Source of the DNA: Halorubrum rubrum
GTDB taxonomy: Archaea; Halobacteriota; Halobacteria; Halobacteriales; Haloferacaceae
DNA: 64,000 nt
Direction: 5' to 3'
Assembly (NCBI RefSeq): GCF_024494685.1
Contig: NZ_JANHDM010000005.1
Coordinates: 124,001-188,000 of the forward strand
Below, piece by piece: positions 37,603 through 41,262 of the stretch. Made by a program: the position numbers and the translations under genes. The notes under the pieces were generated by a model, which saw only the letters and a list, made by a program, of their open reading frames with translations, was not told the DNA's origin and made no database searches. Each line of letters begins with the position of its first letter. Positions within the stretch are counted from its first letter, which is position 1.

Positions 37603-38760
37603 CTACTCGGTCCGGTCCGGGATCGACGCGCGGATCTCGCGGACCCGCTCCGGCTCGTCGATCCCCGACCGCAACACGATCGCGAACACCGCCTCGCCGT
37701 CGGGGACCGGGGCGTCCCCGCTCAGGATCGCCCCGGAACCGGTCTCCTCGGCGAGCCACCGCCGCCCCTCCGCGATCGCCTCCCGGTTGAGCCAGGCGGG
37801 CGGCCCGCCGACGACGAGCAGGGTTCGGTCGGCGCGACCCTCGGGAACCTCGATCGTGTTCTTCCCGCGGGTCGCCTTCCGGATGGCCGTCTCGACGGCC
37901 GACACCGCGGCGCTCGTGTCCACCTTCTCCGGCTCCGAGGAGCCGAACAGCCCGAGCCCGAACCGCGACTCCGCCTTCGGGGGCTCGACCTCCTGGCTCG
38001 CATAGCCCAGCGCCGCGATCTCCCCGTCGTCGCCGACCGCGCGGGCGACGTCGCTGGCGTCGAGCACCTGCTGGGGGGTGACGGTACTCTCGTCGGTCTC
38101 GCCGGCACCGAACAGCGCCGCGATCCGGTCGGCGACGATCCCGTTCACCCGGTCTCGGGCGTCGGCGATCGTCTCGCCACGGCGCAGCCACGCGTCCGTG
38201 TCGAACGGGAGGACGGCGGCCGTCCGCTCCGAGAGCGCCCCCAGCGTCCGGGCCGCGTTGCGCTCCGCGAGGGGTCGTCGCGGGCCTGACCCGTCGTCGG
38301 CTTCACCCGGCGGAGACGCGTCCGCCTCCGCGTCCGGATCGCTCTCGGCGGACGTCGGGAGGACGGCGAAAGAGTACACCGGCGCGTCGTAGAGGGTCTC
38401 GAGCTCCGCGGCGAGCGCCGGGGCGACCCCGCCGCCGGCCGCGCCGCCGACGCCGACGACGAGGACGAACGCCTCCGCGAGCGACGGGCGCTGGTCGTCG
38501 AGCGCGCGACCGAGCTCGCTCGCGTGGACCTCGCCGAGCTCCCGACCGGCGTGGAGGTCGCCGTCGAGCCCGTCGCCGCCCGCGGCGTCCCCGAACCGGT
38601 ACCGCCGCTCCTCGCCGAGCGCCCCGAGCGAGTCGAGCGCCGCCATGTCCGTGTCGAACGCGGAGACGCCGTGAAGGAAGGGCTCCCCGTCGTGGTCGGC
38701 CGCGAGCCGGTCCGCGATCCGGCCGCCCGCGCCGCCGAGGCCGATGACGTGTACGCGCAT
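37603..38760 (-). CDS. Divergent tubulin/FtsZ-superfamily GTPase (CetZ-like)
   Basis: 385 residues. The nucleotide-binding N-terminus MRVHVIGLGGAGGRIADRL matches FtsZ/CetZ loop T1. The T4 glycine loop reads VVGVGGAAGGGVAP (about 102-115) where FtsZ has GGGTGTG, so the usual Thr/Ser is replaced. A T7-like VTPQQVLDASDVARAV lies before the C-terminal domain, which has TLLVVGGPPAWLNREAIAEG as in FtsZ-type C-terminal domains. It is probably a cytoskeletal or regulatory GTPase rather than the main division FtsZ. Its TATA element (CATAAATCC) overlaps the stop codon of the upstream gene. Confidence 0.85.
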   Translation of the reverse strand: MRVHVIGLGGAGGRIADRLAADHDGEPFLHGVSAFDTDMAALDSLGALGEERRYRFGDAAGGDGLDGDLHAGRELGEVHASELGRALDDQRPSLAEAFVLVVGVGGAAGGGVAPALAAELETLYDAPVYSFAVLPTSAESDPDAEADASPPGEADDGSGPRRPLAERNAARTLGALSERTAAVLPFDTDAWLRRGETIADARDRVNGIVADRIAALFGAGETDESTVTPQQVLDASDVARAVGDDGEIAALGYASQEVEPPKAESRFGLGLFGSSEPEKVDTSAAVSAVETAIRKATRGKNTIEVPEGRADRTLLVVGGPPAWLNREAIAEGRRWLAEETGSGAILSGDAPVPDGEAVFAIVLRSGIDEPERVREIRASIPDRTE

Positions 38761-38784: not shown

Positions 38785-40014
38785 TTATGACCTTCGGCCG
38801 CCCGCGGGGCGGTCGCGGTCGCCGGGGACGCCCGGCCAGTCGTCGTCGTCCCGGCGGGGACCCGACCCGCCGGAGGCCGCGGACGCGTCGCTGCCGGAGA
38901 CCGTCCACTCGAACTCGTCGAGGCGGCGCTGGCCGTCCGGGAGCCGCTCCGCGGGGTCCTCCGGCTCCACGCCGAGCAGGCGAGGCAGCGCGGTGTCCCC
39001 GAACGTCAACACGAGCACCAACACGATCGGCGCGAGAAAGAGGCCGTGGAAGCCGAACACGACCGGGCCGAAGATGTACGCGAGCATCAACAGTCCGACG
39101 TGGGTCGTCTTCCCGCTGAAGTACGGCCGCAACACGATGTCCGGGATCGTGTCCACGACGACCACCACCACGACGAGGAACCCGACGACGTACGCCAACA
39201 GTCCGGTGTCGTTCCCCATGATCGCCGGAACCGCGGTCGCCGCGGCCAACGGCAGGTAGACGATCTTCATGCCGATGACCGGGATCAGGCTCGCGATGCC
39301 CGTGAGCGCCCCCGCCAGCGTCGGGTACGGAACGGCGACGGGCTCGGGGGCGACGACGTTGTAGCCGGTGTACGTCGCGATCGCGATGATCGATATCGCG
39401 ATGACGTTGAGCAGGTTCCCGTACAACACCGCCTCCAGCTCCGCGTCGGCCGCCTCGAAGTACTCTCGGACGATCGCGTCGTCGTCGAACCGGAGCACCC
39501 ACTCGTGGAACTTCGAGCCGTCGAGGAGCAGGTAGTAGGTGACCACGACGGTGATGAGCAGGTTTAACAGCAGCCCCGAGACCGTGTTCGTCAACAGCGT
39601 GGCGTTGTCGAGGAGGAAGTCGATCAGCGGGTCGAACTGGCCGGACCGATACGCCTCGACGACGTTTCCGAGCGAGAGGTTCGACAGCTCCGTCAGCCGC
39701 TGTACCCACTGGTTGCCCGACCCGAGCGTCTCGGCGAGCGGGAACTCCTCGAGGAACCGCCGCGTCTCCACGACCAACAACACCACCGCGGCGCTCAAAA
39801 GCAGGATGAGCGGGACGGCGATCACCGAGAGCGCCGTCACCGCCCGGACCCGCGGAGGGAGCCGGAGCCGCTCGAGGTCGTGATAGAACCGGCGGGTGGA
39901 GTAGTAGAGGAAGACGGCGACCGTGAGGGCGGCGACGAAGCGGTAGGCGATGTAGCCGGCGATGAGCGCGACCGTGAGACCGAAGAGGGCGACGACGAAA
40001 CGCTTCTCGTCCAT
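38785..40014 (-). CDS. AI-2E family (PerM-like) membrane transporter
   Basis: The 409-residue protein has about eight hydrophobic segments: two or three at the N-terminus, a long amphipathic extracellular segment (about 80-150) and a cluster from about 155 to 345. This is the pattern of the AI-2E/PerM family, whose members export small molecules or act as Na+/H+ antiporters. Family stretches visible include LLLDGSKFHEWVLRF and AYIFGPVVFGFHGLFLAPIVLV. The last 60 residues are a polar, acidic tail. TTTATGTTCC about 25 nt upstream of the ATG suggests a leaderless RNA. Confidence 0.88.
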   Translation of the reverse strand: MDEKRFVVALFGLTVALIAGYIAYRFVAALTVAVFLYYSTRRFYHDLERLRLPPRVRAVTALSVIAVPLILLLSAAVVLLVVETRRFLEEFPLAETLGSGNQWVQRLTELSNLSLGNVVEAYRSGQFDPLIDFLLDNATLLTNTVSGLLLNLLITVVVTYYLLLDGSKFHEWVLRFDDDAIVREYFEAADAELEAVLYGNLLNVIAISIIAIATYTGYNVVAPEPVAVPYPTLAGALTGIASLIPVIGMKIVYLPLAAATAVPAIMGNDTGLLAYVVGFLVVVVVVVDTIPDIVLRPYFSGKTTHVGLLMLAYIFGPVVFGFHGLFLAPIVLVLVLTFGDTALPRLLGVEPEDPAERLPDGQRRLDEFEWTVSGSDASAASGGSGPRRDDDDWPGVPGDRDRPAGGRRS

Positions 40015-40068: not shown

Positions 40069-41172
40069 TCAGTTTCCCGGAGGCTCCGTCGCGAGGCCGT
40101 CGGTCGTCCCGTCCGGCCGATCGCCGGTCGCTCCGTCGGGTCGGTCGTTTTTCGCTCCGTCGGGTCGGTCGTTTTTCGCTCCGTCGGGTCGGTCGTCGGC
40201 CGTCGATCCGGGGGCCGCTCCTCGCGCGCCCCTGCCGCCGTGTGACGCCAGTCGCTCCTCGACGACGCGGTCCTGTCTGTCCAGCTGCTCGCGGTGGAGG
40301 GAGAGGATCATGTCGGCGAGCACGCCGAACACGAGCAGCTGCATCCCGAGGATGATCGCGCCGGTCGCGGCCACCGCGATTATCTCGTGGCCGACCTCGA
40401 AGACGATCCAGCGGTAGAGGACGAACGCGGCCATGAGCACCCCGGCGGCGGTCGAGACCGTTCCGACGCTCCCGAAGTAGAAGAGCGGGTTGTTGGTCTT
40501 CGCCTTCCGGTACAACTCGAGGAAGATCACGCCGCCGTCGCGGACCGGGTGGAGGTTCGTCGAGGAGCCGTCGGGACGCGGCCGGTAGGTGACGGGGACG
40601 ACCGCCACGGTCACCCGCTGTTTCACGCACTCGACGGCCATCTCGGTCTCTACGCCGAACCCGTCGGCGGTGAGGTTGAGCCGGCCGAACGACTCGCGGG
40701 TGAACGCCCGATACCCCGAGAGGATGTCCCGGTAGTCCTCGCCGTGGATCGCGCGGAACGCCCCGTTGATGATGCGGTTTCCGAGCCGATTCAGCCGCGT
40801 CATCGCGCCGGGACGCATGTCGGCGAAGCGGTTCCCGATGACGTGGTCGGCCTCCCCCTCGAAGAGCGGCGTCAACATCGCCTCGGCGTCCGCCGCGTCG
40901 TAGGTGTCGTCGGCGTCGGCCATCAGGACGTAGGGCGCGTCGACGTGGTCGCGGACGGCCTCGCGTATCGCCTGACCCTTGCCCTCGGCGGACTGGACGA
41001 CGACGCGTGCGCCGGCCTCGCGGGCGAGCTCGCGGGTGCCGTCCGTCGACCCGCCGTCGATAACGAGGACCTCCCGGAGTCCCGCCTCCCGGAACGAGGA
41101 GACCACGGTGCCGACCGTCTCGGCCTCCTCGAAGGTGGGCAACAGGACGCAGACGTCGTCGAAGTCGCTCAT
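40069..41172 (-). CDS. aglJ: AglJ-type dolichyl-phosphate hexosyltransferase (GT2)
   Basis: 367 residues. An N-terminal GT2 domain has VCVLLPTFEEAETVGTVV, VIDGGSTDGT, YVLMADADDTYD (metal-binding DxD-like) and DILSGYRAFTRESF. Two C-terminal membrane helices (about 245-305) follow. This matches AglJ, which in Haloferax volcanii adds the first hexose to dolichol phosphate for N-glycosylation of the S-layer protein. The protein then has a disordered tail with DRPDGAKN-type octapeptide repeats. The ATG at 41172 begins the GT2 domain. A GtrA/VTT/sulfatase-like group just upstream supports a surface-glycan role. Confidence 0.85.
   Translation of the reverse strand: MSDFDDVCVLLPTFEEAETVGTVVSSFREAGLREVLVIDGGSTDGTRELAREAGARVVVQSAEGKGQAIREAVRDHVDAPYVLMADADDTYDAADAEAMLTPLFEGEADHVIGNRFADMRPGAMTRLNRLGNRIINGAFRAIHGEDYRDILSGYRAFTRESFGRLNLTADGFGVETEMAVECVKQRVTVAVVPVTYRPRPDGSSTNLHPVRDGGVIFLELYRKAKTNNPLFYFGSVGTVSTAAGVLMAAFVLYRWIVFEVGHEIIAVAATGAIILGMQLLVFGVLADMILSLHREQLDRQDRVVEERLASHGGRGARGAAPGSTADDRPDGAKNDRPDGAKNDRPDGATGDRPDGTTDGLATEPPGN
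40106..40196. repeat. 24-bp tandem repeat at the aglJ 3' end
   Basis: Perfect units at 40130-40153 and 40154-40177 and a partial third to about 40195, with a degenerate unit on the left. In frame on the minus strand each encodes the octapeptide DRPDGAKN or a variant. Confidence 0.88.
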
Positions 41173-41262
41173 CGTCCGGGCGATGTCGGCCGAGTCGCTA
41201 AACTCTGTCCCTCCGATCGCGAACCCCGGACGGGTCCGCGGTCGCAAAACGCGGGGTGACCC

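Follow-up and report, generated by a model that had tools for sequence, protein, structure and literature searches.

The gene at positions 37603–38760 of the window (the whole 64,000-nucleotide stretch of DNA analyzed) encodes a CetZ protein, here termed CetZX, which belongs to a strongly supported haloarchaeal CetZ clade of its own and is neither CetZ1 nor CetZ2. Its T4 loop reads GGAAGGG, and the hydroxyl residue at the fourth position of this loop is missing throughout the genus Halorubrum. Within the tubulin superfamily, CetZs make up a third, archaeal branch, and many haloarchaea keep several of them. Though the family itself is already known, a T4 change fixed across a genus within the CetZX clade appears to be new.

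Family assignment, phylogeny, and distribution

The open reading frame, originally called without a strand, is real and occupies these coordinates exactly, on the minus strand (Table 1). Pfam searches returned matches to CetZ_C (PF21011; E 6.6e-38, 130.4 bits vs. a cut-off of 21.6) and Tubulin (PF00091; E 5.5e-13); together with the T1 sequence GLGGAGGR, these back the earlier assignment of the T1 loop and C-terminal domain to the tubulin/FtsZ superfamily. The solved structures closest by sequence in the PDB are CetZ1 (4b46; E 4.8e-51) and CetZ2 (4b45; E 3.6e-30), and the nearest named relatives are proteins from Halorubrum species at 75–87% identity, which is why the genus is here called Halorubrum. 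Because it carries the CetZ_C domain, lies closest to the CetZ1 and CetZ2 structures in both sequence and fold, and is placed among CetZs in two trees, CetZX is a CetZ and not an FtsZ; the sequence-only reading of a divergent FtsZ/CetZ-like protein is supported in the narrower form of a divergent CetZ. A PHROGs search gave no match, leading us to reject a phage origin, and no plasmid relatives above 60% identity were found.

The 3.2 Mb genome also encodes FtsZ1, FtsZ2, one CetZ1-like protein, one CetZ2-like protein, and one large tubulin-like protein. FtsZ1 and FtsZ2 are ordinary, both with T4 GGGTGTG, and their presence agrees with the earlier suggestion that CetZX is unlikely to serve in the main division ring. 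The large tubulin-like protein (contig C20) has an open frame of ~1062 aa, the motif GLGGGSGSG, and a coiled-coil-like C-terminal part; it is possibly of the FtsZ-like Tubulin_2 kind.

In a first tree of 94 sequences, the CetZX clade comprised 25 rows with support of 100/99, and CetZ1 and CetZ2 fell elsewhere. Enlarging the set by 18 sequences drawn from the phylum's other classes gave a second tree, which again recovered the CetZX clade (20 rows; support 100/100) within the CetZ portion, among CetZs that include non-haloarchaeal ones. A 100/100 split in this tree parts the CetZs, CetZX included, from FtsZ1 and FtsZ2, with a long FtsZ outgroup branch and several unsettled deep forks within CetZ. 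CetZX lies outside the CetZ1 and the CetZ2 clades in both trees, and it lacks the short M-loop of the CetZ2 subfamily. Phylogeny had been proposed as a check on the sequence-only reading: CetZX lies outside the canonical CetZ1, CetZ2, and FtsZ clades, but inside the wider CetZ family.

A search of 391 haloarchaeal genomes identified a CetZX orthologue in 46/46 Halorubrum genomes, in three other genera of the same family (54–62% identity), and in about 50 genomes of a second family, here f4 (~45–53% identity); more distant relatives (~43–45%) occur in two further genera. The best match was only ~37% identical in a genus that holds a CetZ1 99% identical to that of Haloferax volcanii; this genus is probably Haloferax, and judging by sequence it seems to have no CetZX orthologue.

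A third, uncharacterized CetZ subfamily in diverse Halobacteria is mentioned by Brown and Duggin (2023; PMC9856176); going by the description given there, the CetZX clade may or may not be this subfamily. Another candidate for it is provided by the "pairA" CetZs, which belong to adjacent cetZ pairs. Such pairs are found in many haloarchaea: the upstream copy is canonical, with T4 mostly GGGTGSG, and the second is often longer, with altered T2 and T4 (GTGCG, AGGTGGG, and others). The two copies form sister clades and could make up a heteromeric pair. Non-haloarchaeal members of the phylum carry divergent CetZ-like proteins of 482–514 aa; these share a long branch and may be the "Halo.Tub" group described in PMC9871819.

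Table 1. Coordinates in the window of CetZX, its sequence elements, and the adjacent genes
Feature	Residues	Position	Strand	Remarks
AI-2E family membrane protein		38785..40014	(−)	PF01594, E 7.3e-32; 24 bp upstream of CetZX
CetZX, CetZ-clade gene	385 aa + stop	37603..38760	(−)
T1 loop GLGGAGGR	7–14	38719..38742	(−)	Glycines kept; CetZ Gln10 replaced by Gly
T2 loop AFDTD	34–38	38647..38661	(−)	Canonical Asn replaced by Asp clade-wide
T3 loop GGDGLDGDLHAG	61–72	38545..38580	(−)	CetZ G69 and N72 lost
T4 loop GGAAGGG	105–111	38428..38448	(−)	CetZ reference GGGTGSG
Variable, low-confidence insertion before H6 (acidic linker)	140–164	38269..38343	(−)	Absent from CetZ1/CetZ2
H7 guanine-contact position	Asn206	38143..38145	(−)	CetZ1 N187
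T7 loop VLDASDVARAV	232–242	38035..38067	(−)	Catalytic-type acids D234, D237
Uncharacterized protein, 247 aa		36814..37557	(−)	45 bp downstream of CetZX

The altered nucleotide site

The sequence-only reading gave the T4 loop correctly (GGAAGGG, within VVGVGGAAGGGVAP) but set it against the FtsZ form GGGTGTG; the apt reference is the CetZ form GGGTGSG, present in every CetZ1 and CetZ2 row shown of the alignment. Relative to this form, CetZX differs at positions 3 (G to A), 4 (T to A), and 6 (S to G). We surveyed T4 in 88 clade members: 46 from Halorubrum, 38 from family f4, and 4 from the three other genera of Halorubrum's family. The position-4 hydroxyl is gone in all 46 Halorubrum genomes sampled (45 Ala, 1 Val), so the reported loss of the usual phosphate-binding Thr extends well beyond the one gene; the forms observed are GGAAGAG (19), GGGAGAG (18), GGAAGGG (8), and GGAVGSG (1). 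Position 4 is Thr or Ser in all 38 members from f4 (37 Thr, 1 Ser; the loop is mostly GGATGGG) and Thr in 4/4 from the other three genera. Mapped onto the tree, the position-4 loss corresponds to one change; loss of the position-6 hydroxyl, which is absent through most of the CetZX clade, needs seven changes across all sampled CetZs. The pattern suggests a stepwise loss, with the second hydroxyl disappearing earlier in the clade and the first at the base of Halorubrum. A limited literature search, conducted without supplementary tables, found no paper on T4 loss in CetZ. Separately, in two other genera a sister group carries a T4 that departs further still from the canonical form (for example GLAGATGATLLP or GLAGGSGATALP), with T7 D..E intact; this is a distinct case of T4 degeneration.

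The T4 changes are not noise, because the position-4 Thr is missing from 46/46 genomes, T4 is less variable than average (entropy 0.31 bits vs. a protein mean of 0.56), and pairwise dN/dS between CetZX and ten relatives is 0.23–0.39. Selection on CetZX is purifying, and 160/385 positions are invariant. Variability is high in the acidic linker (1.63 bits vs. 0.56 protein-wide). The fold is predicted to be intact: a single-chain AlphaFold2 model had a pLDDT of 88.9, rising to 96–97 in the blocks around T4, and a pTM of 0.89; the poorly predicted parts were chiefly the linker, the M-loop region, and the final residues. A Foldseek search with this model ranked CetZ1 4b46 first (TM 0.79/0.92), with CetZ2 also among the best.

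Beyond T4, the phosphate side of the site is altered and the guanine side largely kept. T3 is remodeled, with the CetZ1 DNELG gone, and the T2 Asn is replaced by Asp in 88/88 clade members. Among rows covering each position, the H7 Asn206 position holds 42 Asn and 3 Asp in 45 Halorubrum sequences and Asn in 38/38 from f4; T6 Asp187 is kept in every row and the T6 Asn in most; and the T7 acids D234 and D237, which correspond to CetZ1 D215 and E218, are kept in all (Halorubrum 45/45, f4 38/38, others 4/4). The T1 glycines are also kept, and the alteration of T3 and T4 falls on the gamma-phosphate side. Five canonical CetZ1/CetZ2 nucleotide-site residues (CetZ1 Q10, N38, N72, T111, and S113) are replaced in CetZX, 5/5. 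Canonical CetZs have 101 columns conserved to 90% or more, of which Halorubrum rows keep 60. Those lost near the nucleotide include Q10, N38, H66, G69, N72, T111, and S113, and many others are lost elsewhere, so the divergence of CetZX is not confined to the pocket. Since other accepted CetZ groups also depart from canonical residues at some nucleotide sites, T4 included, these departures are best read, at the level of sequence, as marking a divergent CetZ rather than a protein that is not a CetZ.

CetZX shares with Haloferax volcanii CetZ1 (4b46) the fold, the CetZ_C domain, the long M-loop region, the positions of the T7 acids, and the C-terminal-domain motif GPPxxLNRxxIxxGRxW, yet is only ~31% identical to the CetZ1 of its own genome; it differs in T4 (GGAAGGG vs. 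GGGTGSG), T2 (Asn to Asp), the loss of the T3 DNELG, the additional acidic linker, and the missing acidic C-terminal tail, a tail that CetZ2 also has. With H. volcanii CetZ2 (4b45) it shares the fold and the layout of the nucleotide site, whereas CetZ2 forms a separate clade and has a short M-loop and T4 GGGTGSG.

Proposed function and competing explanations

We consider it somewhat better than an even chance that CetZX is a nucleotide-binding, hydrolysis-impaired divergent CetZ, either forming static filaments or being incorporated into them, in a non-division role. Given that the fold, the contacts on the guanine side, and the T7 acids are kept, and that the T4 hydroxyls are lost and T3 is remodeled, a guanine nucleotide would likely still be bound between CetZX subunits, and CetZX would likely hydrolyze its own nucleotide very slowly. 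Of the earlier prediction, that GTP would be bound or hydrolyzed weakly or differently, impaired hydrolysis is thus the part we would also predict; lost binding is less so. Slow hydrolysis is expected by analogy, because FtsZ T4 mutants at the second Thr hydrolyze slowly yet polymerize. Bacillus subtilis FtsZ T111A retains 13% of wild-type GTPase with a critical concentration twice that of wild type (PMC3618327), and Escherichia coli FtsZ T108A has low GTPase and a comparable assembly rate with no treadmilling (PMC8175707). These proteins resemble CetZX in having lost a T4 hydroxyl with T7 intact, and slow hydrolysis with assembly is the predicted parallel; they are, however, single laboratory mutants of FtsZ at the second Thr, whereas the change in CetZX, a CetZ, affects several sites and became fixed in nature. 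With three T4 positions as well as T2 and T3 changed, binding could fail. Compensating residues (the T2 Asp, or R240 in T7) may instead rescue hydrolysis, and the missing acidic tail may remove a partner contact.

CetZX might then build long-lived filaments of its own or enter those of CetZ1 and CetZ2. In the tubulin superfamily, the T7 loop of one subunit completes the nucleotide site of the next. The intact T7 of CetZX is therefore in keeping with an effect on CetZ1 or CetZ2: through its T7 face, CetZX could make the GTPase site of the adjoining subunit complete, its own site staying nearly inert, and so act as a cap or stabilizer. This role as a cap or co-filament is speculative, an idea built on residue retention. 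A stronger version, which we hold to be unlikely, is a dedicated one-sided CetZ, with an intact T7 face and a nearly dead nucleotide face, whose capping or copolymerization stimulates or blocks CetZ1/CetZ2 hydrolysis. If true, its logic would parallel, in an archaeon, that of the unequal alpha and beta sites in tubulin, and it would have arisen stepwise. CetZ biology, together with the two FtsZs in the genome, leads us to infer a non-division role, which might lie in cell shape or envelope organization. No biochemical or cell data on any CetZX-clade member were found in the literature searched.

Other explanations start from the same residues. A true pseudo-GTPase, a monomeric or scaffold tubulin fold whose pocket binds no nucleotide, is unlikely, though T2, T3, and T4 are all altered and the position-4 hydroxyl is gone genus-wide. 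A natural example of a tubulin-superfamily protein with degenerate T4 (AGKAGSA), the Nitrosopumilus maritimus FtsZ Nmar_1262, does not polymerize in yeast (PMC3684127); this FtsZ-type protein also lacks the T7 loop, which CetZX keeps. An empty site would moreover be expected to drift, and hardly any variation is seen in the T1 glycines, the T6 Asp, the T7 acids, or the Asn/Asp at H7. At the opposite extreme, CetZX could be a CetZ GTPase of ordinary activity, with other residues making up for the T4 side chains and T4 acting mainly through its backbone amides. The T4 glycines are indeed kept except at position 3, the T7 acids are intact, and other retained CetZ groups also vary T4; we nonetheless judge this improbable, given that a T4 Thr-to-Ala change costs FtsZ about tenfold in activity (PMC3618327) and that both T4 hydroxyls are gone in CetZX, with T3 changed too.

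The two remaining explanations carry almost no weight. The CetZX branch is longer than that of CetZ1, as might be expected of a duplicate decaying into a pseudogene; presence in all 46 Halorubrum genomes, intact reading frames, and the purifying selection and invariant positions described above led us to reject this origin. We likewise find it scarcely credible that CetZX is a division FtsZ: the similarity it does show to TIGR00065, the FtsZ model, is weak (17.9 bits) and far below the cut-off of 295.2, T4 is not GGGTGTG, and the CetZ_C domain, the place among CetZs in the trees, and the separate FtsZ1 and FtsZ2 all run against it.

On the preferred reading of a hydrolysis-impaired CetZ, the clade would amount to an experiment of nature that pulls assembly and GTP hydrolysis apart, T4 appearing to have been dismantled in orderable steps with T7 and the fold under selection. 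Relatives with intact Thr in neighboring families could serve as controls, and the apparent Haloferax genus, seemingly without a CetZX orthologue, as a clean heterologous host.

Neighboring genes

The genes on either side are, as first described, an AI-2E-type membrane protein and an unknown protein (Table 1), for the latter of which Pfam and NCBIfam searches returned no match. The order AI-2E, CetZX, 247-aa gene, purK is common in Halorubrum: across 20 loci, AI-2E lies nearby in 19 (on the same strand) and the 247-aa gene and purK in 18 each. None of the three was found nearby in 20 loci read outside Halorubrum. In f4, a tRNA-intron endonuclease gene precedes the CetZX orthologue in 11/11 loci, and in 8/11 the gene on the other side encodes a class-I tRNA synthetase of the W/Y type and is probably trpS; comparison of the Halorubrum and f4 loci revealed no neighbor common to both. 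Because the AI-2E/247-aa/purK linkage is limited to Halorubrum and the f4 neighbors differ, these linkages look like local gene order rather than a shared pathway, and the neighborhood, offered earlier as context, is not informative about function.

The 247-aa protein was rejected as a dedicated partner: it occurs in 269/391 haloarchaeal genomes, many of them without a CetZX-clade gene. A functional link through AI-2E was also rejected, the adjacency being found only in Halorubrum; AI-2E proteins 60–63% identical to this one occur in one of the three related genera (g20), whose CetZX gene sits on a different contig, as well as in genomes that the 25-row CetZX clade does not include. An interpretation of this neighbor through the Mycobacterium tuberculosis PerM–FtsB link was dropped, as PerM could not be placed in the same family. 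The 247-aa protein has an apparent internal repeat. Just upstream of the AI-2E gene, on the same strand, lies a gene for AglJ, an S-layer glycoprotein N-glycosyltransferase (40069–41178; TIGR04182, E 2.3e-133).
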